Shown: in pieces, positions 30,237 to 45,617 of the stretch
How the letters are laid out: each line of letters begins with the position of its first letter
Numbering within the stretch: position 1 is the first letter of the stretch
Assembly (NCBI RefSeq): GCF_028275115.1
Contig: NZ_JAQCNH010000029.1
Coordinates: forward strand, 124,001 to 188,000
Source of the DNA: Halorientalis sp.
GTDB taxonomy: Archaea > Halobacteriota > Halobacteria > Halobacteriales > Haloarculaceae
Direction of reading: 5' to 3'
Length of the DNA: 64,000 bases
Made by a program: the position numbers and the translations under genes
The notes under the pieces: generated by a model
What the model saw: only the letters and a program-made list of their open reading frames with translations
Databases searched by the model: none
Told to the model about the DNA's origin: nothing

Positions 30237-30815
30237 GGCCCTCCCTATCGTCACTCGGGTTCGCTCCCCGGTACGAGTCCACTCGACTCTCCGTTTGTCC
30301 CGCACGTCGGACCGGCTAGCGGGTGCCGAGGGCGCCACACTGCTCACAACTGCTCGAACTGAACCATACGGGGTTCGGGCGGGTCGAGTGTCGCACCCGC
30401 TCCCGTGTCCTGCAGGAGTCCCCGTGTGGTGGTCGGTGGCTCGAAGGCACGGTTTCGGATCGCTCGCAGACGTCGGGAGTGACGGTCCACAGCGACGACC
30501 GCACGGCAGGTGCGAGCCCGGAGCCGACCGCTCGGGGCCCCACCCGAGTGAGGGCGATCCGTCGGTCCGAGCAGTGCCACCTCTCCGAGGTCCGTCGGCT
30601 GTGTACTTGCTGCACACACTCGCCGAGGGTTCAATATGGACGACCCAAAGTCTCGCTCAGCAAACTAATCGCAGGCATGTGGGGTGACGGAAGCGAGCAA
30701 ATGGGTGAGACGGGAACTGGGTGTCCCGTTCTGGCCGACACGGTCAGGGTGTACAGTGAGGGAAACCGCCGGCGTGGGGTCGGAGAGTCCGGAACGCGGG
30801 ACTGCAGGGGTCAGG
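30237..30815. other. 580-base stretch without a supported gene
   Basis: Several short open frames exist on both strands but none has a recognisable motif, promoter and composition together. A TTCAATATGG stretch at about 30630-30640 could be the promoter region of the giant surface-protein gene. The AT content rises near 30640-30680. Confidence 0.4.
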
Positions 30816-33800
30816 ATGAGGCGGTCTGACCGAAGCAGGTCACCACGGCGCGGGAACGGGCGAGCCGTGCTGGTGTTCGTGGTGACCGCGGCGCTCGTGG
30901 TCTGGCCGATTGCGGGTGCGGTCGGCCCACTCGGAACCGTTGCTGCACAGGCCGACGACGGTACCGGAACTGTCGGTGGTAGTGATACCGCGACGAGTCG
31001 GACCGCAGGCGGCGGGCCGGTGGCCGAAGGGCGTTCGAGTGTGGTCGCCCAGCAGGCGAGCCCCGTCGAGATCGGGGACTGGAACGACCTCGACACGATC
31101 CGGAACGACCTGGACGGCGACTATGTCTTGGTGGCCGACCTCAACGAGACGACGCCGGGCTACGACGAGGTCGCCGGCCCGAACGCGAACGACGGGTCAG
31201 GCTTCCAGCCGATCGGTAACGACAGCGCGAGGTTCAGCGGGACGCTGGACGGCGACGGACACGAAATCGTCGGTCTATCCGCCGACAGACCCGACACGAC
31301 CCCAGTGGGGTTGATCGGGAGCAATCACGGGTCCGTCACCGACCTCGTGCTGTCCGATGTGGACCTGAACGGGAACAACCAAGTCGGGGCTGCCGCCGGG
31401 AGGAACAGCGGAACCGTGGCGAACGTCCGGGTGTCAGGTGTCTTGAATGCCAGCTTTTATACCGGCGGCGTCGCCGGCTCGAACAGCGGTCTGGTCAACC
31501 GGACGACAGTGTCCGGGACCATCGAAGGGAGATACGGCGGTGGCGTCGTCGGCGTCAACAATGACGAGGGAGTGGTCCGACAGTCGAACAATACGGCGTC
31601 GATCCGGGCCAGACAAGCAGGCGGTGTCGTCGGGAGCAACAACGGTCTCGTCCGTCTGAGTTCCAACGCTGGGACGGTGAACGGTGAGTTCACCGTCGGC
31701 GGAATCGTCGGGGTCAACGGCAACGCCCTCATCGAAGGCGAGGCCGTGACGACGTCCTACAATACGGGGACTGTGAACCACACGGACCCGTTCGATACCG
31801 GGGGAACGGGTGGAATCGTCGGTCGCAACATCGCGACGGTAAACCGCTCGTGGGTCTCGGCAGCCGTCGAATCGGACCTCGAGCGTGACGTTGCGGCGGC
31901 CGTCGGCTTCAACGACGGCACCGTCTCCGGGGTGTACTACGACACCTCCGCGACCGCGATTGACGACCGGAACGCGACCGGTCTGGCGGGATCGGAGATG
32001 CGGGGTGACTCCGCCGTCGGCGCCATGGACCGTCTCGACTTCCAGAACACCTGGGAAACCGGCGGGCAAGACGAGTTCCCGGACCTCCGAGTTCAGGTCG
32101 GCGCTGATGTCGGTTCCGGCCCGAGCAGCCGGATCGAGGACTGGAACGACCTCGACGCGGTCCGGAACGACCTGGACGGCGACTACGTGCTCGTGAACGA
32201 CCTCAACGAAACGACGCCCGGCTACGAGGACGTCGCCGGTCCGAACGCCAACAACGGGTCGGGCTTCGAGTCGATCGGACCGCTGTTCGGCGGGACCTTC
32301 GACGGCGATGGACATACGATCTCCGGCTTCCGCGACAGGACCGGACGGACCGGCGGGTTGTTCGCGACCAGTAACGGGACGATTACGGGGGTGACGGTCG
32401 CCGACGCGACCGTCGACGGTGGCATCGCTGGCGGTATCGTCGGCGAACTGACCGACTCCGGCACCGTCAGCAACAGTAGCGTCGAGAACGTTACCGTAGA
32501 GGGTGCGTTCATCGGTGGTGTCGTCGGGGAGATCCGCTCCGACTTCGGGACCGTCACTCGGTCGAGTGCGACGGACGTGACCCTCTCTGGGAGCCAGGCA
32601 GTCGGCGGTCTCGTCGGGACGTCGGACGGCGTCATCCGCAACGGCACGGTCGAGAGCGACGTCGGTTCCGACACCGGGGTCGTCGGCGGACTCGTCGGGA
32701 GCGTCAGTACCGGACGCGTCGTCGATTCCGAAGCGATCGGCAACGTCTCCGGAGCGGGCTTCGGTGTGGGCGGGCTCGTCGGTCGCGTGGGTTCGTCCAG
32801 CACCGTCAGCGAAGTGTACAGCAGGGGGTCGGTCACCGGCGAGAACGAAGTCGGTGGACTCATCGGCAGACTCCAGGAGAGCACCCTCTCGGTCGCGTTC
32901 AGCAGCGGTCCCGTGGACGGTGACGGGGCGGTGGGCGGACTCGTCGGGAGCAATCTTCCGGCCGGGAACGACGACAGCACAGTACGGGACACGTACAGCA
33001 GCGGACCGGTCACCGGCGGTAGTAAGGTCGGTGGCCTGGTCGGTGAGAACCTCGCGACCGTGACCGACTCCTACAGTACGAGCCAGGTCACGGGCGACAA
33101 CCGAGTCGGCGGGTTGGTCGGGGACGACAGTGCCGGAAGTGTCACCGGGTCGACCGGAGGCGCGTACTGGGATACGAACGCGTCCGAACAGAACGAGTCG
33201 CAGGGCGGGACCCCGCTCACGACCGCCGAGATGACCGGCGACGCCGCCCGCGAGAACATGAGCGGTCTGGACTTCGAGAACACGTGGGCCGCGGGCGGAC
33301 CCGGCGAGTACCCCGAACTCCGGGCGCTGGCCGACGGCGGCCCGAGTAGCCGGATCGATGACTGGAACGACCTCGACGCGATCCGACGGAACCTGAGCGG
33401 CGACTACGTCCTGGCGAACGACCTTACCCCGAACACGTCGGGCTACGAGGACGTCGCCGGTCCCGAGGCCAACGACGGGTCGGGCTTCGAACCGATCGGA
33501 AACGGCACGAACGGATTCACGGGGTCGTTCGACGGCAACGGCCGTGTGATCTCGGGACTCGTCGTCAACCAGACCGGGGTCGGACAGGCGGAGAACAACA
33601 AGGGGCTGTTCCACAACCTCTCGGGGAGGGTGACCGACCTCGCACTCGAGAACGTCGACGTCGGCGGTGCGGCGAACGTCGGCGGCCTCGCGGGGTACAC
33701 CGGCGCCCTGCAGAACGCGACGATCCGAAACGTATCGGTCGCGGGTGAGATTCGCTCCGTCGTCGGCAACGCCGGTGGCATCGCCGGAACGGCCTTCTCC

Positions 33801-36800
33801 GGGACGACGATCACCAACTCGACGACTGCGGTCGAGATCGACACGGACAATACGGTTGGCGGGTTGGTCGGAATCGCCCTGACCACGGACGTGCGCCGCT
33901 CGCAGGCGAGCGGGCGTATCTCGGCCGGTGGCGGTGTCGCCGGCGGCCTGATCGGGTTCAATGACGAAGTGACCGTCCGGAACTCCTCGGCGGCCGTAGA
34001 CGTCGCCGCGTCCGGGCCCCAAGTCGGTGGCCTCGTCGGGTTCCAGAACGTCCAGAGCGAAGTCGTCGACTCCTACGCGACGGGGAACGTCTCGGGGACC
34101 AGCAGCGTCGGTGGTCTCGTCGGCGCGTTCGGCGGCGTCCTCAACCGGACGTATGCGACCGGCGAAGTGACCGGCGACAGCAACGTCGGCGGGCTCACCG
34201 GCGAGCGGGACCGGTTCACCGGCGAGCGTACGGTGCGGAACTCCTACTGGGACACCGAAGCGACCGGACAGGACGGCTCGGCCAACGGCACGGCCCTCAC
34301 GACTGCGGCGATGACCGGCGACGCCGCCCGCGGGAACATGACTGGATTCGACTTCGAGAACACCTGGTTCGTGCCGGGTCCCGACGAGTACCCGCGACTC
34401 CGGGCGTTCGGTGAAGTCGAGGAGAACGACACCGAGATCCTCGGTCTGGAGGTCACGGACATCCAGTTCCGTCAGTTCCTCCGCGACGAGGAGGGGCGGA
34501 CGGTGGTCGTCAACGTGACGAACCGCGGCGTCGTCAACCAGACGGAGAACGTGGTGTTCAGCGTCCCGACCGAGGAGGCGCCGGTCAGGCGAAACGAGGT
34601 CGTCTCGACGGTCCGATTCCGGGAGAACGTCACCTTCGAGCCGCTGGAGACCAAGACCTTCGAGTTCCGTCTGCCGGAGATCGAACTCGGGCCGTCGGAC
34701 AATACCGACTTCGAGGTGAGTTACGATCGCCAACAGGGAACACTCGAACTCACCAACAACGCCAGTCGGCCGCTGGTCGCCGGGGAGGTGATCGTCGACG
34801 GGACGAACCTCACCGACGTCGACGGACTGACGCCGCTGTCGGCCGTCACGTCCCTCGACGGGAACGAGACCGTCGACCCCGGCCGGACGGTCTCGCTGCC
34901 GACGACCAGCGACGCGGCGACGCTCCGGGTCCTCGTGAGCGAGCGGATTACGCCGACGCTCGAGGCCGATACCCTGAGTCGGGACATGGAGTTGTTCCTG
35001 TTGCCGGACCTCGTTCGGCCGGTGCCGAGGATCCAGTCGGACCGTGACCCGGCGTTCCCGGTGACCCAACCGGTCCGGTTCCGGGTCGGACAGGCGGTTC
35101 GTTCGTACTTTTTCGGCCGTGGCGGCGAGGCCGTCGGGACGACGCCGGACATCGAGTGGGAGTTCCTGTACCCCTCGTTAGACCGTGCCAGGGGGAGACC
35201 AGGCGGAGTCGCGGTACCGGACGACATCGAGAAGGTCACGTTCACCGGCACGCGCGTGACGCAGGCGTTCGCCGGAGCGGGCGGTGCAGGTGCCAGCGTC
35301 ACCGTCCAGCACCCCAACCAGCCGGAGACGACGTTCAGGACGAAACCGTACCGCGTGGGGTCGCCCGAGCAACTGCCGCCGATTCTCACCGGCGTCGACG
35401 GCAGTGACGGCGTCTACATCAGCGACCCCGACGACGACCTGGAACCGGACGGCGAGACGACCATCCGCGAGGGGTTCGACGCGCAGTTCCTCGCGCCGGA
35501 CCAGGTGACCGAGGTGACGTTCGCACCCCAGTGGGTCGACGGCGGGAACGTCACCGATACGAACCCGAGTGACGGCTGGAGCGCCGAGTTCGACGTCGCA
35601 GACGTTCCGAACGACGACGGGTTCGGCCCGGACGCGGAACTGGTCGTCGTCGCCGTCGACGACGAGGGCCGGACCGTCGAGACGGTCGACCTCTACACGA
35701 CGGACCCGCCACTGTGGGCCGAGCGCATCTACCGCAACGGCGGCTCGACCGTCGGTTCCGACGGCGGAACCGTCGGCGAGGCAATCGTGATTCCGGATGG
35801 CGGACTGGACGCGACTGTCGAACCGCCGAAGAGCTACCCGGTCGTCGGCGGGAAGCAAATCGGTCTCAGCGGCGCGATCCGGTACGGCGTCGACACCTAC
35901 CAGCGCGAGGCCTTCGCCGCCCGCTACGGCGACGGGTCGCTGTCGGTCGGCGTTCCGCTCAGCGCGGTCACCAACGTCAACCAGTCGTTCCGCATCGGCG
36001 CGGCCGCCGAGTACGGCGTGCCGGAGTGGCGGCTGAACGGCAACGCCCGCTTCTACGTCATCGCCCGGACGCTGTTGACGCGGGACCTCCAGATCGGGGT
36101 GCCGGGCCGGTTCCCGGCCGTCGGGGGGCAAAACGTCAGCGCGTCCGCCTACATCGGACCCGGGTACGGGTTCGAGCTGACGCTGTCGGGCATCAGGGGC
36201 GGCCGACTGACCGTCGACGAGGGGCTCGGCTACGCGAACATCACCGCCGGCGTCGAGGCGGCACAGTCCGTCGCCGGCCAGGAGGTGTTCGTCTCGGTGG
36301 ACGGCGAGATCGAGGGCAACGGCGAGACGACGATCGACAACGACCCCGACCGGTTCGACGACGTCTCGGTCGCCGGGATCGACTTCGGTGGCAGCCTCGA
36401 CGGTGCCGTCGGCGCGCGTGTCAGTGCGCCGGGCATCGGTGGGGAGCTCACCGCAGGAAAGACCCTGTTCGCCGCCGGATCACAGGACGTCGACCAACCC
36501 GGTCCGCCGTTCGCCGCTCGTGCCGGCCCGTCCACGGTGCTCCCCATGGCCGCCGGCACGCCGGCGATGCCGCTGTCGCTGGACCAGGCACCGACGCCGG
36601 GACAGACCGGCCGGCGGGCGTCGTACGATCCGGCCGACGGTCGACTGACCGACAACGACCTCAACGACACCGACCCGGCCATCGCCGGCAGTGACGGCGA
36701 TTACACGGTCGCCTGGAGCGGACAGGCCCGCGACCGGCCCCAGCCCGAACGGCGGGAGATCTACGTCCGAGAGTACGCCGACGGGAGCTTCGGCGACCGG

Positions 36801-39800
36801 GTCCGGCTGACCGACGACGCCGCGTACAACGTCGACCCGACCGTGGCACGCACCGGTGGCACGACGGTCGTGGCCTGGGCGCGGATGGAGAACGACCAAC
36901 TCGACTCGATCCCGGCGGGCGAGCTGACCTTCCAGGACACGCGCAACGCCTCCGAGATCGCGTACGCGATCAACGACGGCACCGGCTGGTCGGAGCCGCG
37001 CGTGCTGACCAACGACAGCCGGTATCAGGGGTCGCCTGTCGCAGCGGCCATCGCGTCCGGGACCGGGTTCGTGGTCGCGTACGAACGTGACGGCGACTTC
37101 GACTACACGACGCTCGACGACGAGACCGTCGAGTACACCCGTCTCGACGCTGCCGGCACGCCGGTCGAGAACGGTACCCTGGGTAACGGCCACGGGCCAC
37201 GAGCAGCGCCGACCGACGCCGGTGCGGTCAGAATCGGCCACGAAGACCCGAGCGACGGCGCGAGTACCCTCGTCGTCTCGGAAGTGGACGACACCGGCGT
37301 GACGACGCTGCGCGAGGAGGCCGTCGACAATCTGACGACGTTCGACATCGCCGCCGACGCCGTCGCCTGGACTGCGGACGGTACCTCCGGGTCAGGGACG
37401 GTCACGCTGGCGGACGGGGACGGCGTTCGAACCGTCCCGGTCGGCAACGGGACCACCGTCCGGGAGCTGCGGCTCGCGACGGTGGGCGACCGGCGGTTGC
37501 TCCAGTACCAGGGGTCGAGCCCGGCCGCGGACGAGGCGTTCCTGCCGAACGCCCGGACCACCTACTACCAGCTGTTCCGCAACGGGAGCTGGTCGCCGCC
37601 CCGGACAGTCGAGCAGGCCGTCGACACCGACAGGACGATCTACGACCACGCCGTGACGACCGACGACCGGTCGTTCGTCTCGGTGGCGGCGGCGGTCGCG
37701 TTCGGACAGCCGGGTGCGGTCGACGACCTGTTCTACGTCGACCACGACTACCGGCCGGACCTGACCGTCTCACTGCCCCAGGACGACCGTGCGACCGTCC
37801 GCAATGCGACCGTCGGCGACCGCGTGAGCCTGGACGTGACCGTCGCCAACACGGGTGACGCCGGCACCGGCGAGCAAAGCGTGCTGGCAGCGGCGGACGG
37901 GAACGGAACCGTGATCGACACGGTCACCGTCGATCCGATCGACGCCGGGAGCCGGTCCACGGTGTCCGTCACGACGACCGTGCCCGAAACCGGCGTCGTC
38001 ACGCTCAGAGCCGACGCCGAGGGCGAGTTGGCGGAACTCTCGGAGGCGAATAACGAGGCGACGGCGGTCGCACAGCGGCCCCGGCTGTCGATCGAGAACG
38101 CGCGACAGACGCCGACGACTGACGGGCTAGTGGTGAACGCCACAGTCACGAACGCGGGCGAGACGCTCGTGACGAACGCGTCGGTCGAACTGGTGAACGG
38201 CGACCTGGAACTCGAACGGAGCGTTGCCGGGTCGCTGGCGCCAGGCGAGACGGGGAGCGTGACCTTCGATGCCTCGCGCGACGTGTTCAACCGTAGCGAG
38301 CCGGGCCAGCTGCTCGTGCGGGCGACCGAGCCTGCAGAGCAACGACCCGCGACCCGCGAGACACTGCCCCTGACTCGGGCCAGCCCGACGATCCCGGAAC
38401 CCGGTGTCGAGGCGGTGTCACTGGGGAACACGACGTTCGTCAGCGTGCCGATCACGAACGACGGCCTGAATAACACGCGGACGGAGCTAGAAGTCGCCTA
38501 CGGTGACGACGTCCGGACGCGCCAGGTCTGTGTGCCGCCGGCGACCGCGGAGCGACCGACCGGGTTCCGACGCGCGTTCGTGACCGCGCCGAACCTGTCG
38601 ACTGGGCAGTCGGTCTCGGTCGCACTGAACGACAGCTACAACGGAACCACGCGGTCCGTGGCACCCACCGATCGCGGGACCGTCGCCCGGGTGCAGGTCC
38701 GGCCGCGGGAGGGCGACACACCCCCGCTGGTCGACGGCCGATTGCCGACCGACGCCGACTGTGACGGCGTGTACGAAGACTTCGACGGCGACGGCGTCGT
38801 CACGGACGACGACCTCCGAGCGTTCTTCGAGCGCAGGACCGACGAGTCGTTACGGACGCAGCGCCCGCGGTTCGACGCCAACGGCGACGGCCGGGTCGAC
38901 GTCCACGACGTCCAGACGGTACTCGCCGAGACCGACGAGGGCGACGGTGCCGGTGGAGGCGGCCCGCGGCCGTCCGTCGTCAGCCCGTCCGAACCGGGTC
39001 CCACAAGCGCGCCCGGCGCGGTCGCCGGCGTGGCGTTCGCCGGTGCGGCCATCGGTGGGACCGCCGGCGTGGGGGCACAGACCGCGGCGACAGAACCGGA
39101 GATCGATGTCGAAGACGGCGTCGCAGTCCCAGAAGACGGGACAGCGACGGTGGCCGTCACCGTCCCGAACGACCCGGTCGGCGCGTTCAACGTGACGGTT
39201 CGGGCGGACGGACCGCTGACCGTTACGGATCTGGCGGCCGTCGACAGCGAGTACAGCGAACGGCTGGCCGACCGCGACGGCGGGTCAGCACTGGTCGCGG
39301 CCGGCCACGGCGACGGGCCGGCCATCCTCGAAGCGACCCTCCGCGGCGAGGCGACCGGCAACGGGACCGTCGTCGTCGACACCGAGAGTATCAGCGACGA
39401 CGACGGAACGCGGTACGAGTCACCGGCGGCGGTGTCGGCGACGCTGACCGTCGCCGCGGACGTGGACGCCGGCAGTGGGTCCGGCGACTCCGGGACTGGC
39501 TCGGACGGTGGGTCCGGCGGCGGCACGGGGTCCGGCGGCGGCAACGTCGGCGGTGTGACCGGCGGCGGTGACGCTGGAGTGGCGGACGACGGAGAACGGA
39601 CCGTGACGGCCACGCCGGAGCGGACGACCGAGGGAACCCGGACGGAGACCACCACGACGACGGCGACCGAATCCACGACGGAGCCGGCGACGGAGACCAG
39701 TGATGCGACGCCGATTACGGCGGCGGAGCCGGCCGCGGAAGACGGCGGGACGCCGACCGCGGCACCGACCACGACCACGGCCGACGGCCCTGGGTTCGGC

Positions 39801-39869
39801 TTACTCGCGGCGCTGGTCGCGCTGTTCGTCGCCGTCCTCGCGGCTCGGATTCGCCGCCGCGGTCGGTGA
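30816..39869 (+). CDS. Giant secreted GLUG-repeat, CARDB, dockerin/cohesin-like protein with PGF-CTERM
   Basis: ATG 30816 gives 3017 residues, beginning with a basic start and signal helix (AVLVFVVTAALVVWPIAGAV, about 17-45). Residues about 87-1199 are three large modules of GLUG-type repeats (VGGLVG-like cores), each opening with DWNDLD. An Ig-like region follows, then a beta-rich middle. About 1945-2310 has propeller-like strands (GDYTVAWSGQARDR). About 2314-2600 holds CARDB-like Ig domains (SLDVTVANTGDAGTGEQ), and 2646-2708 a dockerin-like pair of Ca-binding loops (DFDGDGVVTDDDL and DANGDGRVDVHDV). A cohesin-like domain lies at about 2759-2882, then a Thr/Gly linker and the PGF-CTERM-like end DGPGFGLLAALVALFVA-RIRRR. 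It should be exported, archaeosortase-processed and lipid-anchored. Its binding target is unknown; adhesion or surface assembly is likely. Confidence 0.88.
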   Translation: MRRSDRSRSPRRGNGRAVLVFVVTAALVVWPIAGAVGPLGTVAAQADDGTGTVGGSDTATSRTAGGGPVAEGRSSVVAQQASPVEIGDWNDLDTIRNDLDGDYVLVADLNETTPGYDEVAGPNANDGSGFQPIGNDSARFSGTLDGDGHEIVGLSADRPDTTPVGLIGSNHGSVTDLVLSDVDLNGNNQVGAAAGRNSGTVANVRVSGVLNASFYTGGVAGSNSGLVNRTTVSGTIEGRYGGGVVGVNNDEGVVRQSNNTASIRARQAGGVVGSNNGLVRLSSNAGTVNGEFTVGGIVGVNGNALIEGEAVTTSYNTGTVNHTDPFDTGGTGGIVGRNIATVNRSWVSAAVESDLERDVAAAVGFNDGTVSGVYYDTSATAIDDRNATGLAGSEMRGDSAVGAMDRLDFQNTWETGGQDEFPDLRVQVGADVGSGPSSRIEDWNDLDAVRNDLDGDYVLVNDLNETTPGYEDVAGPNANNGSGFESIGPLFGGTFDGDGHTISGFRDRTGRTGGLFATSNGTITGVTVADATVDGGIAGGIVGELTDSGTVSNSSVENVTVEGAFIGGVVGEIRSDFGTVTRSSATDVTLSGSQAVGGLVGTSDGVIRNGTVESDVGSDTGVVGGLVGSVSTGRVVDSEAIGNVSGAGFGVGGLVGRVGSSSTVSEVYSRGSVTGENEVGGLIGRLQESTLSVAFSSGPVDGDGAVGGLVGSNLPAGNDDSTVRDTYSSGPVTGGSKVGGLVGENLATVTDSYSTSQVTGDNRVGGLVGDDSAGSVTGSTGGAYWDTNASEQNESQGGTPLTTAEMTGDAARENMSGLDFENTWAAGGPGEYPELRALADGGPSSRIDDWNDLDAIRRNLSGDYVLANDLTPNTSGYEDVAGPEANDGSGFEPIGNGTNGFTGSFDGNGRVISGLVVNQTGVGQAENNKGLFHNLSGRVTDLALENVDVGGAANVGGLAGYTGALQNATIRNVSVAGEIRSVVGNAGGIAGTAFSGTTITNSTTAVEIDTDNTVGGLVGIALTTDVRRSQASGRISAGGGVAGGLIGFNDEVTVRNSSAAVDVAASGPQVGGLVGFQNVQSEVVDSYATGNVSGTSSVGGLVGAFGGVLNRTYATGEVTGDSNVGGLTGERDRFTGERTVRNSYWDTEATGQDGSANGTALTTAAMTGDAARGNMTGFDFENTWFVPGPDEYPRLRAFGEVEENDTEILGLEVTDIQFRQFLRDEEGRTVVVNVTNRGVVNQTENVVFSVPTEEAPVRRNEVVSTVRFRENVTFEPLETKTFEFRLPEIELGPSDNTDFEVSYDRQQGTLELTNNASRPLVAGEVIVDGTNLTDVDGLTPLSAVTSLDGNETVDPGRTVSLPTTSDAATLRVLVSERITPTLEADTLSRDMELFLLPDLVRPVPRIQSDRDPAFPVTQPVRFRVGQAVRSYFFGRGGEAVGTTPDIEWEFLYPSLDRARGRPGGVAVPDDIEKVTFTGTRVTQAFAGAGGAGASVTVQHPNQPETTFRTKPYRVGSPEQLPPILTGVDGSDGVYISDPDDDLEPDGETTIREGFDAQFLAPDQVTEVTFAPQWVDGGNVTDTNPSDGWSAEFDVADVPNDDGFGPDAELVVVAVDDEGRTVETVDLYTTDPPLWAERIYRNGGSTVGSDGGTVGEAIVIPDGGLDATVEPPKSYPVVGGKQIGLSGAIRYGVDTYQREAFAARYGDGSLSVGVPLSAVTNVNQSFRIGAAAEYGVPEWRLNGNARFYVIARTLLTRDLQIGVPGRFPAVGGQNVSASAYIGPGYGFELTLSGIRGGRLTVDEGLGYANITAGVEAAQSVAGQEVFVSVDGEIEGNGETTIDNDPDRFDDVSVAGIDFGGSLDGAVGARVSAPGIGGELTAGKTLFAAGSQDVDQPGPPFAARAGPSTVLPMAAGTPAMPLSLDQAPTPGQTGRRASYDPADGRLTDNDLNDTDPAIAGSDGDYTVAWSGQARDRPQPERREIYVREYADGSFGDRVRLTDDAAYNVDPTVARTGGTTVVAWARMENDQLDSIPAGELTFQDTRNASEIAYAINDGTGWSEPRVLTNDSRYQGSPVAAAIASGTGFVVAYERDGDFDYTTLDDETVEYTRLDAAGTPVENGTLGNGHGPRAAPTDAGAVRIGHEDPSDGASTLVVSEVDDTGVTTLREEAVDNLTTFDIAADAVAWTADGTSGSGTVTLADGDGVRTVPVGNGTTVRELRLATVGDRRLLQYQGSSPAADEAFLPNARTTYYQLFRNGSWSPPRTVEQAVDTDRTIYDHAVTTDDRSFVSVAAAVAFGQPGAVDDLFYVDHDYRPDLTVSLPQDDRATVRNATVGDRVSLDVTVANTGDAGTGEQSVLAAADGNGTVIDTVTVDPIDAGSRSTVSVTTTVPETGVVTLRADAEGELAELSEANNEATAVAQRPRLSIENARQTPTTDGLVVNATVTNAGETLVTNASVELVNGDLELERSVAGSLAPGETGSVTFDASRDVFNRSEPGQLLVRATEPAEQRPATRETLPLTRASPTIPEPGVEAVSLGNTTFVSVPITNDGLNNTRTELEVAYGDDVRTRQVCVPPATAERPTGFRRAFVTAPNLSTGQSVSVALNDSYNGTTRSVAPTDRGTVARVQVRPREGDTPPLVDGRLPTDADCDGVYEDFDGDGVVTDDDLRAFFERRTDESLRTQRPRFDANGDGRVDVHDVQTVLAETDEGDGAGGGGPRPSVVSPSEPGPTSAPGAVAGVAFAGAAIGGTAGVGAQTAATEPEIDVEDGVAVPEDGTATVAVTVPNDPVGAFNVTVRADGPLTVTDLAAVDSEYSERLADRDGGSALVAAGHGDGPAILEATLRGEATGNGTVVVDTESISDDDGTRYESPAAVSATLTVAADVDAGSGSGDSGTGSDGGSGGGTGSGGGNVGGVTGGGDAGVADDGERTVTATPERTTEGTRTETTTTTATESTTEPATETSDATPITAAEPAAEDGGTPTAAPTTTTADGPGFGLLAALVALFVAVLAARIRRRGR
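31076..34407 (+). repeat. Three tandem protein modules inside the giant gene
   Basis: Modules begin near 31076, 32136 and 33354. Each opens with DWNDLDxIRxxLxGDYVL, then GYxxVAGPxANxGSGFxPIG. Each contains many VGGLVG-type repeats and closes with FxNTWxxGGxxEYPxLR. The module openings are also nearly identical in DNA (for example GACTGGAACGACCTCGAC), which points to duplication and possible recombination. Confidence 0.8.
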
Positions 39870-40293: not shown

Positions 40294-42522
40294 ATGAGCC
40301 AACGGGTTGGGGAGCAGGTGCCAGCGCCGGTCCCGCCGGACGATCCCGACGCCTGGTACGCACCCGACGTGTGCGACCAGCGGGAGATTCATTCCGGCGT
40401 GGTCGCGACCATCCGTGAGCGCCCGGACGGGTTCGCATACGAGGTCCGCGAACCGAGCATGACGCCCGGCGAACGGGCCGACTTCGATCACGTTCGCGAG
40501 TACTTCGCGGACGCCGGATTCACCCGGCCGCTCACCCGCGAGGGAGCTATCGAGCTGATGAAGAGTGGGTTCGAGCCGAAATCTCGCCGCGTGGTCGACC
40601 GGCTGACCGACTGCACCGACACTGCACGTCGCCGACTGAACTATCACCTCCTCGCCGAGTTACACTGTCTCGAAGAACTCACGCCGTATGCCCTGGACGA
40701 GCGTATCGACGTGGCCGACGCCGCCGAGAGTCGACTCGTGGTCCACACAGAGGACTACGCACCCGCGGTGACCGAGTTGCCGGCCGATCCCGAGCATCTC
40801 GAGCGGTTCGCGAGCGTTCGATTGGAGCGCCACACCGTTGCCTTCCACGGCTTCGAGATTCCCGTGGTCGTCTACCGCGAGAACGTGCTGGGCAACGACC
40901 CGTTCACGACGAAGTACGCCGTGCAGGAACCCGACCTTCTGCCAGGCGACGAGGAGCTCGTCGAGGACTGCAAGGAGCGTATCTGGGAGACGAGTACCGA
41001 CGGCGTCGTCGAGGACGCCGCCATGTTCGTCGACGAACGCGCCCGAGAACTGCTGTCCCGGCAGCTGACCGCCCGTAACACTCGTGCGTGGTTCGACGCG
41101 CTCTCCTACCGGGTGCGGGCGGCCCTAGCCGAGTACGATCTGGCGGTCCCACCGGTCGACCGCCGGTTCGCCGACGACCGCCTCTCGGATCTGGTGTACT
41201 ACGTCCTTCGGGACTACGTGGGCCACGGCAAACTGACAATTCCGATCCGCGACCCCACACTCGAAGACATCGAGGCCAACAGAGTTGGCGAGCGCGTCAA
41301 AGTCGTCCCGCGTGCGGACGTGGGTCACAACGAGCGCATCCCCACGAACTTGACCTTCGAGGACGAGAGGACCTTCGTCAACGTCGTCACACAGCTGGCG
41401 GCCGCCGATGGGACGGAGCTGAACGCCAGCACGCCGAGTGCGAAGGTGAATCTTCGACCGGCGGGCGTCGACGAGACAATCCGCTGTGCAGTTGCGCTCC
41501 CGACGATCAGCGAGGACGGCCCGCACATCTCGATTCGCAAACAGGCTCCGGACGTCCTGACGCCCGTCGACCTGCTCCAGCGGAACAGCGTCTCGACGGA
41601 ACTGGTCGCCCTGTTGTGGCTGCTGTACGAACACCGCGGGGTCGTCCTCTTTTCCGGGTCGACAGGCGTCGGCAAGACGACGCTGATGAACGCGCACATG
41701 CCGTTCGTCCGGTACGACGACCGGCCGATCAGCATCGACGAGGGGTCCCGGGAAGTCCAGTTGCCACACGAGACCGGCGTCTCGCTCACGACTCGCGACC
41801 ACGAGAGCGAGTACAAACGCGTCACGATGTCGGACCTGATGACCGAGGCCAACTACCTCAACCCCGACATCGAGGTGATCGCCGAAATCAACACGCCGGC
41901 CTCCTTCGAGACGTTCGCCGAGAGCCTGAACACCGGCCACGGCATCATCGGTACCACTCACGCCGACGACGTTCGGACGCTGGTCAACCGCATCGTCGAA
42001 CAGGGTCTGCCACCGTACCTGCTGAAGGAGCTCGATCTGGTCGTCTTCCCGCGCCACGTCGACGGCGACCGCTACGTCGGACGGGTCGTCGAACTGCTCG
42101 ACGAGTCGGCGTTTGGTGAACTGGATCGGGAAGCCGACGCCTGTGGGACCATCCGGAAAGACGGTGCGACGGTCCACTACAACACCGTCGTTGAGCGCGG
42201 CCACGACGGCGAGTTCAGCCTGGCGTACGACCACCCACAGTTAGGCGACGACGAGCGGGCGCTCGGTACGCGCGTGTTCGGCCGTCTCGCCGAGCGGACC
42301 GATAGGCCAGTCGGTGCCGTCGAGGACGAGTTCCACCGGAAGCGCCGGTACGTGGAGTATCTCGAACGCGAGGGTGTCACCGACTTCGCGGCCCTGTTCG
42401 AGTTTCTCGCCGACCTGCGCACCGACGAGGCTGCGACGGTCGAGCGGGCGAGTCGGTCGCTTGCCGACCGCAGCGGTTACGAACCGGACATCGACATCGG
42501 AGGCAGGGATGGCGACGACTGA
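40294..42522 (+). CDS. TadA/PilB/VirB11-type secretion ATPase
   Basis: This 742-residue protein is full-length for an archaeal type IV pilus/Tad ATPase. The N-terminal 380 residues are the variable adaptor part. The motor core has SIRKQAPDVLTPVDLL, the P-loop FSGSTGVGKTT at about residue 454, the Asp-box region SIDEGSREVQLP, a Walker B-like DIEVIAEI and a His box GHGIIGTTHADD. It should form a cytoplasmic hexamer that drives subunit assembly through the TadC-type platform encoded next. It overlaps the tadC start by 14 bases. Confidence 0.92.
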   Translation: MSQRVGEQVPAPVPPDDPDAWYAPDVCDQREIHSGVVATIRERPDGFAYEVREPSMTPGERADFDHVREYFADAGFTRPLTREGAIELMKSGFEPKSRRVVDRLTDCTDTARRRLNYHLLAELHCLEELTPYALDERIDVADAAESRLVVHTEDYAPAVTELPADPEHLERFASVRLERHTVAFHGFEIPVVVYRENVLGNDPFTTKYAVQEPDLLPGDEELVEDCKERIWETSTDGVVEDAAMFVDERARELLSRQLTARNTRAWFDALSYRVRAALAEYDLAVPPVDRRFADDRLSDLVYYVLRDYVGHGKLTIPIRDPTLEDIEANRVGERVKVVPRADVGHNERIPTNLTFEDERTFVNVVTQLAAADGTELNASTPSAKVNLRPAGVDETIRCAVALPTISEDGPHISIRKQAPDVLTPVDLLQRNSVSTELVALLWLLYEHRGVVLFSGSTGVGKTTLMNAHMPFVRYDDRPISIDEGSREVQLPHETGVSLTTRDHESEYKRVTMSDLMTEANYLNPDIEVIAEINTPASFETFAESLNTGHGIIGTTHADDVRTLVNRIVEQGLPPYLLKELDLVVFPRHVDGDRYVGRVVELLDESAFGELDREADACGTIRKDGATVHYNTVVERGHDGEFSLAYDHPQLGDDERALGTRVFGRLAERTDRPVGAVEDEFHRKRRYVEYLEREGVTDFAALFEFLADLRTDEAATVERASRSLADRSGYEPDIDIGGRDGDD

Positions 42523-44440
42523 TCGGGACACGGTGACGAGTCCAGCTACCGGGACTCGGTCACTGAGCGTCCTCGACCGCGGGCTGTACGCGCTGTTCTC
42601 CCGGCACGCAGACCGGCCGCGACACGAACGTGATCGGAAGCGGTACCGTGCCGCGAAGCTCCCGACTGGGTTCGACGTGTATCTCGCGCGGGTCTACGGC
42701 GTCTCCTGGGTCGTGTTGGTGTCGTTCGCGATGGTAGCCGGGACGGTCACCGTTGCGTTACCGGCGGCGCTGGTCGACGGCGTCGTCGGCTTCCTCGGGG
42801 CAGGCCTGCCGGTGGTGAACCGGGTCAATCTGCCCGCGATTCCTCGGCTCTACGTCGCTCTCGGGGTCGGGTTGGTGACTGGGCTGGTCGGTAAGCGGCT
42901 CACCGTCCGGACCGGCGGCCTCTATCTCCGGTGGGTCGCCAGCGCGCGCCGGTCGAGTATCGAGCGGACGATGCCGGGTGCGGTCCGTTACCTGCGTGTC
43001 CTCGCGACGGGAAGTGGCGACCGGCGTGCGATGTTGCGGACCGTCGCCGACCAGGGCGCGTACGGTGAGACCGCAGTTGCCTTTCGGACCGCGCTGAACA
43101 AGGCCGAACTGACGGGCAGCGTCGACGAGGGACTGGAGATGGTCGCCCGCGATACGCCTTCGAAAGACATGCTCGCGCCATTCCTGCTCAAGTTCCGTGA
43201 GCACGCCAACCAGGGCGGAGACGCACTGGCAAACTATCTGCAACTGGAGGGGCGGATGCTCTCGAACCGGGAGGCACGCGCTCGCGAACGCACTGGCGGG
43301 TTCCTCGAACTCCTCTCGGAACTGTTCGTCGTCCTGCTCGTCCTCCCCGCGCTGTTCGTCCTCATCCTCACGGTCATGAGTGTCCTCGCACCTGGGCTGT
43401 CGGAGCCGGTCGCGACGCCCATCGGGCCGGTGGCGACCAAGACCATCCTGTTGTATGGGAGTGGCGTGTTCGTGCTCACGGTCGGTGCGGGTTCGGCGTT
43501 GCTCGTCGAGTCGCTTCGGCCGGCCGAACACTCGATGGGACGGTACGGCCTGCCCGACGAGGTACTCGGACTGTTGGAAAGCGTTCCGAGGAATCCCGGC
43601 AGCGCGGCCGTCGTGACCGCTCCACTGGCCGGCGCGGTGACCGCGCTGCTGTGGACCTGGAGCTATCGTCCCCTGAACGCCGTCTTACTTGGGTACGTGG
43701 CGTTCGGACTGCCGGTCGGCGTCGTAGCCGTCCGACGCGCGCGCATCGACGACGCCAAAGATCGCGAAATCAAAGACTTCGTCCACGCGGTGTCGGGTCA
43801 CGTCAGCCTCGGCCGGCCGTTTCCCGACGCCGTCGAACGAGTCGCCCGCGAGGTCGACCTCGGCGCGCTCCAGAGCGACGTGGACGACCTGGCGTTCACG
43901 ATGAACCTGACTACTGGCGGCGACCGGAGCGAGGACACGACGGACGTCCAGGCGGCTGCACTCGCCCGGTTCGTCGAGGCGGTCGGGACACCGATGGCCG
44001 AACAGACCATCGGACTGGTGACGGGTGCGCTCGACGCCGGGAGCGACTCGGAAGACGTGTTCGAGACGCTTCAGACGGAGATTGGCCGGCTCTACCACGC
44101 ACGAAAGCAGTTGCGCTCGTCGCTGTTGGTGTACGTCGCGGTCGGCTGGACAACAGCACTACTGGTCGTCGGCATCATGGTGGCGGTCAACGGATACGTT
44201 CTCGACGGGTTCACCCAGCTGTCGTCCGTCGCCGGGTCAGGCGCGGGCCTGGCGATCAGTCCGAACGCCATCGAACCGGCCCGGGACCGCTGGCGGTTCT
44301 ACGTCGTCACCCAGGCGACGATGCTCGCGTGTGGCTGGTTCGCCGGCACCGCATCGCGAGGTCGCTACGAGGCTCTGTTGCACTCTGCGGTACTCGTCGG
44401 TGTCGCATACGTCGTCTTCGCGGGGGCAGGGATGGTATGA
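42509..44440 (+). CDS. TadC/PilC-type membrane platform protein
   Basis: ATG 42509 gives 643 residues with two GspF-like halves, the archaeal arrangement. Helices lie near 55-85 and 100-130, then 270-330, 360-400 and the last near 540-640. The cytoplasmic GspF motifs include SVDEGLEMVARDTPSKDML and, in the second half, VSLGRPFPDAVERVAREVD. It is the inner-membrane anchor for the secretion ATPase and the base from which pilin-like subunits are pushed out. It is translationally linked to both neighbours. Confidence 0.9.
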   Translation: MATTDRDTVTSPATGTRSLSVLDRGLYALFSRHADRPRHERDRKRYRAAKLPTGFDVYLARVYGVSWVVLVSFAMVAGTVTVALPAALVDGVVGFLGAGLPVVNRVNLPAIPRLYVALGVGLVTGLVGKRLTVRTGGLYLRWVASARRSSIERTMPGAVRYLRVLATGSGDRRAMLRTVADQGAYGETAVAFRTALNKAELTGSVDEGLEMVARDTPSKDMLAPFLLKFREHANQGGDALANYLQLEGRMLSNREARARERTGGFLELLSELFVVLLVLPALFVLILTVMSVLAPGLSEPVATPIGPVATKTILLYGSGVFVLTVGAGSALLVESLRPAEHSMGRYGLPDEVLGLLESVPRNPGSAAVVTAPLAGAVTALLWTWSYRPLNAVLLGYVAFGLPVGVVAVRRARIDDAKDREIKDFVHAVSGHVSLGRPFPDAVERVAREVDLGALQSDVDDLAFTMNLTTGGDRSEDTTDVQAAALARFVEAVGTPMAEQTIGLVTGALDAGSDSEDVFETLQTEIGRLYHARKQLRSSLLVYVAVGWTTALLVVGIMVAVNGYVLDGFTQLSSVAGSGAGLAISPNAIEPARDRWRFYVVTQATMLACGWFAGTASRGRYEALLHSAVLVGVAYVVFAGAGMV

Positions 44441-45153
44441 CTCGCGCGCAGTCGAACGTCGTCGGTGTCGCTCTCCTGCTGGGGATTGCGGTCGTCTCGA
44501 TGGCCGCGCTCACCGCCGCCGTCGGGGCACTGGTCCAGCACAACGCCGCCAGCGCCGACGCGTCCCGCGTGGCAATAGCGATGGACGACACACTCGAACC
44601 GGTCGAGACGACCGGCCAGCACAGCGACACCGTCCGGTTCACCAGCGGCCACCTCTCGACCGTCGACCGCGAGGTCAGAATCCTCGACGGGTCCGGTGTC
44701 CGCGCCAGCGTCGCGATAGGCGGCCTCGTCTTCGAGGCCGGCAACCGGCGCGTTACCTACGTGGGCGATGCCATCGTCCGGCAGTCCGGCGAGAGCGCGT
44801 GGCTCCACGATGGGCCTCCAATCACCGCCGCACCCGGCGGTGACGTGTTCGTCGTGAGCGTCGCGCGGCTCAACGCCAGCAGCGTCGGTGTCGGCGGGAC
44901 GGGCGAGACGACTGTCACTGTCCGCACCCGTGTCACGCACAACCGAACCGCACTCGGGAAGGGGAGCTTCGGGATCGCAATCGAGACGGCTACACCGGGA
45001 CCGCTTGAGCGCTGGTTCCGCGAACGGAACGCGACCGTCTCACTGCGGGACTTCGACGGCGACGGAACGGTGAGCGTCGTCGGCCGCTTCCCGGGGGACC
45101 GGACGGGTTATTTCGTCGTCCACGACATGCAGGCGGAGGTGAGCGGCGGATGA
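44437..45153 (+). CDS. Pilin-like one-TM protein (DUF7289-like)
   Basis: ATG 44437 overlaps the tadC stop. The 238-residue protein starts MTRAQSNVVGVALLLGIAVV, a pilin-like N-terminal helix preceded by a short basic stretch, and continues as an extracellular beta-rich domain (DTVRFTSGHLSTVDREVRIL, VTYVGDAIVRQSGESAWLH). From memory it matches haloarchaeal DUF7289, sometimes annotated as archaellin/type IV pilin N-terminal domain. It is likely the main or a minor subunit assembled by the ATPase and TadC. Confidence 0.8.
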   Translation: MTRAQSNVVGVALLLGIAVVSMAALTAAVGALVQHNAASADASRVAIAMDDTLEPVETTGQHSDTVRFTSGHLSTVDREVRILDGSGVRASVAIGGLVFEAGNRRVTYVGDAIVRQSGESAWLHDGPPITAAPGGDVFVVSVARLNASSVGVGGTGETTVTVRTRVTHNRTALGKGSFGIAIETATPGPLERWFRERNATVSLRDFDGDGTVSVVGRFPGDRTGYFVVHDMQAEVSGG

Positions 45154-45617
45154 CGGGCGAACTGCGGCGGGACGAGAGGGCGTTCAGTACCGTCGTGGAG
45201 AAGGTGCTGGCCATCGGGCTGGTAACGCTGTTCGTCAGTCTCGTCTCCGTGACCGTTTACGGTGGCGTCGTCCCCGACGCTCGAACGGCGGCAGGTGAGC
45301 AGGTTAGCGAGCGGACGCTGGCGACGGCTGCCGAGCGCGTCCAGCAGGCCGTCCCGCCGAACACGACCGCCGCCGACGTGCACGTGCGGGTGGACCTGCC
45401 GCCGACGATCCGAGGTGCCGGCTACGAGATTCGCGCCCAGAACCGGTCGCTCGTCCTCGAGCACCCACGAGGGCGGCTCGACGGGCGGGCACGGCTCGCA
45501 CTCCCGGCCCCGGTCGTTCGTGTGGAGGGACGGTGGAGGAGCGGCGAACCGGCGTACGTCCGCGTCCAGCGAATGGACGCGGGGCTGGTGGTTCGACTCG
45601 AAACGGAGGGGCGATGA
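45150..45617 (+). CDS. Pilin-like one-TM protein (DUF7266-like)
   Basis: This 155-residue protein begins MTGELRRDERAFSTVVEKVL with a hydrophobic helix at about 17-40 (VLAIGLVTLFVSLVSVTVYGG) and an extracellular part of about 110 residues containing VHVRVDLPPTIRGAGYEIR and RMDAGLVVRLETEGR. It overlaps both neighbours by four bases. The family appears only in this type of haloarchaeal Tad cluster as far as I recall; a minor-pilin role is inferred. Confidence 0.78.
   Translation: MTGELRRDERAFSTVVEKVLAIGLVTLFVSLVSVTVYGGVVPDARTAAGEQVSERTLATAAERVQQAVPPNTTAADVHVRVDLPPTIRGAGYEIRAQNRSLVLEHPRGRLDGRARLALPAPVVRVEGRWRSGEPAYVRVQRMDAGLVVRLETEGR

Follow-up and report, generated by a model that had tools for sequence, protein, structure and literature searches.

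A surface protein of Halorientalis that probably arose by fusion of a dockerin protein to an anchored cohesin

We describe a long open reading frame (ORF), P0001, in a 64,000-nucleotide stretch of a Halorientalis sp. genome (contig NZ_JAQCNH010000029.1, positions 124,001 to 188,000 of the forward strand), referred to below as the window. The frame is open throughout from an ATG at window position 30816 to a stop at 39869 and encodes 3017 residues; an in-frame GTG at 30684 is permitted as an alternative upstream start. The source genome (G000) is a draft assembly of 3.53 Mb in 150 contigs and is 92% complete. The predicted protein starts with a signal peptide and a long GLUG-motif region, and continues through further domains including CARDB; its C-terminal part consists of a dockerin, then a cohesin-like domain, and lastly a linker that leads to a PGF-CTERM-like end (Table 1).

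Table 1. Parts of P0001 and the gene that follows it, in window coordinates.
Feature	Position	Strand	Basis
N-terminal signal peptide and start of mature chain (residues 1-45)	30816..30950	+	Basic start; second most hydrophobic 18-residue window of P0001, at residue 19; read from hydrophobicity
GLUG-motif repeat region (residues about 83-1197)	31062..34406	+	Pfam Glug (6 stretches) and Peptidase_M26_N matches; region limits judged from sequence
CARDB domain (residues 2313-2416)	37752..38063	+	Pfam CARDB match in the search with the whole protein, E 9.9e-13
Type I dockerin module (residues 2651-2707)	38766..38936	+	PF00404, 25.5 bits on fragment; calcium loops 2655-2666 and 2687-2698
Charge-free hydrophobic stretch of 28 residues (2727-2754) between dockerin and cohesin-like domain	38994..39077	+	Interpreted as a signal peptide that has decayed
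Cohesin-like domain (residues about 2760-2880)	39093..39455	+	Haloarchaeal profiles, AlphaFold model, Foldseek ranks 1-5; no Pfam match
Gly/Ser/Asp/Thr-rich linker (residues 2881-2986)	39456..39773	+	Sequence
PGF-CTERM-like anchor (residues 2987-3011)	39774..39848	+	NCBIfam TIGR04126, 22.4 bits (cut-off 24.5); most hydrophobic 18-residue window of P0001
T2SSE-type (type IV pilus-like) ATPase gene, just 3' of P0001	40294..42522	+	Pfam; followed by T2SSF, DUF7289 and DUF7266 genes

P0001 contains a sound type I dockerin with two canonical calcium-binding loops at residues 2655-2666 (DFDGDGVVTDDD) and 2687-2698 (DANGDGRVDVHD). The pair of loops had been picked out by a first-pass annotation of the window, and Pfam Dockerin_1 (PF00404, cut-off 22.9 bits) confirms it on the isolated fragment (25.5 bits) and in the genome search (25.3 bits); on the whole chain the score is 20.3 bits and below the cut-off. 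In the AlphaFold model each loop is followed by a helix (model residues 26-35 and 58-71, with block values of the predicted local distance difference test, pLDDT, of 64-84). A haloarchaeal dockerin profile gave 73.3 bits, which is no independent test since the P0001 dockerin fits the pattern by which the seeds were chosen.

The first-pass annotation also held that the next domain resembles cohesin, and this resemblance became clear with haloarchaeal profiles, on which the score of the P0001 domain rises as the profile nears its own subtype. A first profile of 13 in-chain cohesins gave 5.5 bits, a value reached by 26 of 1991 shuffled sequences. The profile of 33 haloarchaeal cohesin-like domains gave 13.4 bits (0 of 2992 shuffles as high), that of domains from 12 separate neighbour genes gave 16.4 bits (0 of 3000) and that of seven separate neighbour-gene cohesins belonging to one subtype gave 25.6 bits (0 of 4999). 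With this last profile, in which five of the seven seeds have a visible hydrophobic end (L074 and L102 have none), the ortholog from Halorientalis regularis scored 19.3 bits (0 of 5000 shuffles). By hhalign, the P0001 domain reached 87% against 30 domains and 61.5% against the 12 neighbour-gene domains.

Structure prediction of the C-terminal region leads to the same fold. For this model we used a 72-row alignment (A7) with 65 cohesin rows and six dockerin rows beside P0001, drawn from 79 cohesin and 94 dockerin stretches of a named set of contigs (65 and 62 once near-duplicates had been taken out). A7 was picked after trials of several sets of dockerin rows, on the criterion that the rows fall on the right module, and was chosen before any structure was known; an earlier alignment (A5), in which the first strand of the cohesin rows fell on the dockerin, was discarded before folding. 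Nine strands at model residues 132-242 form a nine-stranded jelly roll, and the first five Foldseek matches in the PDB are all cohesins (2w1n, three chains of 2jh2, and 2xdh at rank 3; E 1.6e-7 to 1.3e-6). A natural haloarchaeal tail with cohesin and dockerin in one chain, modelled from 30 sequences, reached a pLDDT of 90.1, and the best 50 of its 139 Foldseek matches with E up to 0.001 are cohesins or cohesin-containing structures, with those of ScaE, OlpA and OlpC among the matches. Profiles and models together point to the C-terminal domain of P0001 as a predicted cohesin-like domain.

Relatives of P0001 are rare: residues 1241-2628 found matches in 12 of the 392 genomes of the order, including the source genome and H. 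regularis. From the other ten genomes we took 14 stretches and read the C-termini. A dockerin of the haloarchaeal type ends three of these divergent relatives, all from one genus (L247, L251 and L260), and another kind of dockerin ends two (L248 and L256). Six have a PGF-CTERM-like end and no dockerin (L252, L254, L255, L258, L259 and L257, whose frame runs on), and three have neither (L249, L250 and L253). The gene before each of L247, L251 and L260 encodes a cohesin with a PGF-CTERM-like end. L262 carries the first piece of one relative, and this piece shares 64.6% identity with the N-terminal part of L247, where the protein is intact, so that nothing else lies between the cohesin gene and the relative. 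Since six of the 14 relatives have a direct anchor and three have a dockerin beside an anchored cohesin, the P0001 family appears to swap anchor types, with one chain in Halorientalis. The two-frame state of the P0001-like gene in L251/L262 and in L260 may reflect a frameshift, an error of sequencing or genuine decay of the gene. A subtilase gene with a dockerin of its own stands before the cohesin gene in L261; the corresponding genome, G148 (L261 1397-6740, L247 6857-15736), has in a row a subtilase with C-terminal dockerin, an anchored cohesin and a giant beta-helix/PKD/CARDB protein with C-terminal dockerin, a candidate surface complex.

The order of the modules sets P0001 apart. In-chain cohesin-like domains occur in 87 of 262 fetched dockerin ORFs (150 residues or more; a redundant set because loci overlap), which removes the contrast drawn by the first-pass annotation with cellulosomes, where the two modules were said to be on different proteins. 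All 87 have the cohesin first and the dockerin second, with P0001 itself below the threshold of this count. The reverse order was found only in P0001 and its H. regularis ortholog among the fetched dockerin ORFs, in a test that covered the 21 (redundant) ORFs with at least 90 residues after the dockerin. What is unusual in P0001 is this order plus the anchor, and the ortholog likewise encodes it all in one unbroken frame.

Both modules of P0001 fall into one subtype. We divided 58 gene pairs by cohesin subtype (47 and 11, repeated dockerin sequences dropped), and in a leave-one-out test the dockerins were assigned correctly in 12 of 12 sampled from the 47 and in 10 of the 11 in the smaller group. 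With the dockerins of the smaller subtype as reference the P0001 dockerin reaches 72.3 bits, versus 55.6 bits with those of the larger, and the P0001 cohesin belongs to the same smaller subtype (25.6 bits), which includes the cohesins of the L247, L251 and L260 pairs. These scores fit a matched pair, a result that shared ancestry alone could also give.

Dockerin and cohesin-like domain are separated by about 60 residues, and the low pLDDT (below 50 at model residues 75-114) indicates a flexible linker. Within it lies the hydrophobic stretch at residues 2727-2754. Among all 18-residue windows of P0001, only those of the C-terminal anchor and of the N-terminal signal are more hydrophobic than the best one here, and the stretch equals the N-terminal signal for the longest charge-free run in the protein. 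By these properties it looks like a decayed signal peptide. If it is read as such, P0001 after its dockerin has the layout of an anchored haloarchaeal cohesin. The PGF-CTERM-like anchor seen at first pass is recognizable in the succession of a Ser/Thr/Asp-rich linker, GPGFG, a hydrophobic stretch and a basic end, which resembles the ends of many separate cohesin genes.

P0001 looks like a fused pair because relatives have split gene pairs and because a stretch like a decayed signal peptide lies between its modules. In our judgment P0001 probably arose in nature when a surface protein with a dockerin became fused to the membrane-anchored cohesin that served as its receptor. The ancestral state would have been a long repeat/CARDB protein that ended in a dockerin, next to a gene for a signal peptide, a cohesin, a Ser/Thr-rich linker and a PGF-CTERM anchor. 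The two genes would then have merged into a single reading frame in Halorientalis, and the second signal peptide would have decayed into the linker. The product would be exported once and held, presumably through a lipid, by its PGF-CTERM end. Its dockerin would most likely clasp, in a presumably calcium-dependent manner, the cohesin that follows it in the chain after about 60 residues; secondarily it may bind the same modules of a neighbouring copy.

Instead of a fusion, the frame could yield two proteins, with a GTG at residue 2739 or 2752 as the internal start of a separate anchored cohesin. These codons are in frame and stand just before the cohesin-like domain. However, no ATG or TTG codon occurs in residues 2690-2774, no basic start precedes the hydrophobic stretch, and the H. 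regularis ortholog keeps the frame continuous, so that we regard an internal start as extremely improbable.

A second alternative concerns what the fused modules do. The first-pass annotation had proposed head-to-tail self-assembly. Each anchored P0001 would then insert its dockerin into the cohesin of a neighbouring P0001, which would form chains or sheets on the surface or join cells. Two modules of matching subtype in one chain with a long flexible linker are what such an assembly would need, but the same linker also permits docking within the chain, which a high local concentration should favour, and descent from a gene pair accounts for the architecture without polymers. Given the evidence for a fusion of a dockerin protein with its receptor, docking inside a single chain has at least the same likelihood, and we consider head-to-tail assembly unlikely.

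The search for other dockerin-bearing proteins returned three further Pfam dockerin ORFs in the same genome, which encode a PhoX, a PhoD and a choice-of-anchor I protein. Each has, by eye, a start like that of a twin-arginine translocation (Tat) substrate and a cohesin-like domain just before the C-terminal dockerin. PhoX is followed about 50 bases 3' by an anchored cohesin gene of its own, the only separate cohesin gene found in this genome by a search that missed the P0001 domain. This search, with alignment A3 at E up to 1, returned four cohesins and may have missed other divergent ones as well; a search with A7 does find the P0001 domain, which is not evidence because A7 contains P0001. 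Neither P0001, with its one cohesin-like domain, nor the other three dockerin ORFs amount to a scaffoldin or cellulosome with several cohesins and cellulase partners. The genome place with the best, still sub-cut-off, Pfam cohesin score (C112, 13.3 bits) is a 533-residue ORF in which we saw no cohesin features by eye. PhoX-type phosphatases with a cohesin-dockerin end and a small, hydrophobic-ended cohesin gene directly after them occur in many haloarchaea (L146-L187; here L008 4458-5832 on contig C103).

The same three proteins bear on the possibility, also raised at first pass, that the anchored cohesin of P0001 is a surface receptor that displays other dockerin proteins. PhoX, PhoD and the choice-of-anchor I protein would be candidate guests, since the genome search by Pfam returned no dockerin ORFs besides these three and P0001, and since none of the three has an anchor of its own after its terminal dockerin. 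Yet PhoX has the adjacent receptor gene just described, and the P0001 cohesin scores low (5.5 bits) on the subtype to which the in-chain cohesins of the three belong. The P0001 dockerin also groups apart from the subtype that includes PhoX, the one of the three that was typed. Docking of these proteins on P0001 is less favoured by this evidence, and we think it quite improbable.

Gene pairs of the kind from which the P0001 fusion would have arisen are common. Pfam dockerin matches at E up to 0.001 occur in 18 of 58 genomes of the same and related taxa, and many of the dockerin genes adjoin a gene for a signal peptide, a cohesin, a linker and a hydrophobic, often PGF-CTERM-like, end. The named set comprises 80 contigs with 94 dockerin ORFs (41 haloarchaeal and 53 from other archaea). 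A cohesin gene lies within 1500 bases downstream of 32 of the 41 haloarchaeal ORFs, 37 have an in-chain cohesin and 31 have both; among the 53 others the numbers are 13 with a downstream gene, of which one (L190) is itself a cohesin-dockerin protein, and five with an in-chain cohesin. A dockerin gene followed by a cohesin gene is also seen outside the haloarchaea, in a metagenome-assembled genome of the Thermoproteaceae (L180, L182) and in methanogens and their relatives (L190, L194, L196, L201, L205 and L216-L218).

Separate adjacent cohesin genes accompany 15 of 37 dockerin ORFs in the source genome and its relatives when the genome G013 is set aside (L002, a copy of the window, is left out of this count and of that for G013 below). 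For haloarchaea as a whole the count is 51 of 81 (49 by distance and two across a broken frame), or 47 of 75 without duplicates. Grouped by family, an adjacent cohesin gene accompanies one or more members in 13 of 25 dockerin-protein families. The counts of 81 ORFs and 25 families omit the window, G013, non-haloarchaeal loci and L097 (the P0001 ortholog), and some genomes enter them twice, under a G handle and as a named contig; the figure of 47 of 75 is free of such duplicates. L069, L072, L075 and L106, which do not match the haloarchaeal dockerin profile, are outside all gene-pair counts. A hydrophobic, anchor-like stretch ends 46 of the 51 neighbour cohesins; the five without are L074, L089, L102 and two in L219. 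The proteins whose dockerins stand beside cohesin genes include PhoX phosphatases, a subtilase and surface proteins.

This pairing also bears on the idea that the dockerin is a plain calcium- or substrate-binding module and the C-terminal domain a spacer whose beta-sandwich resembles cohesin by chance. Two papers assign haloarchaeal dockerins a role, or a likely role, in substrate binding, and neither uses the word cohesin (PMC10963439, PMC13260240); other beta-sandwiches do follow in the Foldseek list of P0001. Adjacent cohesin genes in 13 of 25 families, hydrophobic ends on 46 of 51 of their products and the first ranks of cohesins for both the P0001 and the in-chain model argue otherwise, and make this alternative very improbable.

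Together with the fused end of P0001, the gene pairs suggest that a dockerin-cohesin plug and socket attaches secreted proteins to the cell surface in many haloarchaea. We think it somewhat more likely than not that haloarchaea have a widespread cohesin-dockerin surface display missed by annotation, in which dockerins would serve as removable anchors and adjacent anchored cohesins as sockets, with two subtypes of pairs, one lineage with a cellulosome, and P0001 as a fusion that records which plug matches which socket. If so, a coupling that is probably both salt-tolerant and calcium-dependent would attach phosphatases and a protease, and in one lineage also hydrolases of polysaccharides; P0001 names a concrete pair of modules for it, and such modules would be useful for protein display in high salt.

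Several observations count against the fusion and the display system proposed here. Pfam cohesin (PF00963) did not match P0001 as whole protein, in the genome search or as a fragment, so that the HMM search which the first-pass annotation had proposed failed for this module; it is for this reason that we say "cohesin-like". The same family matched only two of 30 haloarchaeal cohesin-like sequences at E up to 1 and seven of the 72 rows of A7 (65 of them cohesin rows) at E up to 0.1. The first 13-domain profile separated P0001 poorly from shuffled sequences, and a PDB sequence search with A3 returned no cohesin. As a whole the P0001 model has a pLDDT of 74.5 and a predicted template modelling score (pTM) of 0.53, with 64-84 in the dockerin blocks; beta-sandwiches other than cohesins come after the five cohesins in its Foldseek list, and since the cohesin rows of A7 align to the C-terminal domain, they may have lent the model part of its fold. 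A single genus supplies all of the split relatives, which align with P0001 only over residues 1942-2708, and two of the three (L251 with L262, and L260) are spread over two frames. As for the pairs, 12 of the 25 dockerin-protein families have no neighbour cohesin, the PhoX-type family supplies 34 of the 51 adjacent pairs (34 of the 37 members of this cluster have the neighbour), and in the fetched stretches of G013 none of 67 dockerin ORFs has a separate adjacent cohesin gene. Finally, the first-pass claim of dockerin and cohesin in one anchored chain stands for the modules, and for the anchor only in the sense that the protein looks anchored, as TIGR04126 scores 22.4 bits, below its curated cut-off of 24.5. 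No archaeosortase A (TIGR04125) turned up in this assembly, which is 92% complete; the same search, with Haloferax volcanii as positive control, detected the enzyme in all seven of the other Halorientalis genomes that it covered. Its absence here is probably a gap in the draft, and anchoring of P0001 by archaeosortase A is plausible.

Some parts of this arrangement have precedents. In Archaeoglobus fulgidus both modules are on one protein. The cohesin of this pair (2XDH), the rank 3 match of our model, is like P0001 archaeal and not tied to cellulose; we know of no PGF-CTERM anchor or dockerin-cohesin-anchor fusion in A. fulgidus. Cell-surface scaffoldins of cellulosomes are anchored cohesins that hold dockerin proteins. 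The cohesins of the anchoring scaffoldins ScaE, OlpA and OlpC are close in fold to the haloarchaeal in-chain cohesin; P0001 differs from these scaffoldins in that it combines a single cohesin-like domain with a dockerin of its own on one chain, and in its PGF-CTERM-like end. The best Foldseek matches of the P0001 model, 2JH2 and 2W1N, match at 17-18% identity and represent the cohesin-like module of GH84C from Clostridium perfringens, a bacterial glycoside hydrolase whose constructs do not have the order dockerin, cohesin, anchor.

The binding of the A. fulgidus pair has been used for surface display in Escherichia coli, as described in PMC9705933, and strong binding of archaeal dockerin and cohesin modules is on record in PMC9012536, which cites the A. 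fulgidus work. For anaerobic methanotrophic archaea (ANME), the latter paper reports dockerins and cohesins in one chain, as in P0001, and suggests surface attachment. Its examples are scaffoldin-like proteins with up to five cohesins and a dockerin, or S-layer domains with a dockerin, and the section on them describes no fusion of a dockerin protein with an anchored receptor. In the main text of a 2023 comparison of cellulose use by haloarchaea, neither "dockerin" nor "cohesin" occurs (PMC10267330). The larger system behind P0001 is possibly unreported, with the qualification that most subscription papers lie outside the literature searched.

A lineage with different contents is G013, a single contig of 2,723,120 bases (L107-L145, L278-L280) that appears to encode a putative haloarchaeal cellulosome. 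Its fetched stretches hold 67 dockerin ORFs, and nine of ten that were scanned contain a glycoside hydrolase domain (GH5, GH10, GH11 or GH43). Proteins with several cohesins are also present: L279 has two and a PGF-CTERM-like anchor, L278 has three in 719 residues, and L129 and L122 have three and two, respectively, together with a dockerin. Near P0001, no cellulase context was seen by Pfam among the genes checked, and a type IV pilus-like gene set at window positions 40294-45617 adjoins it on the downstream side.

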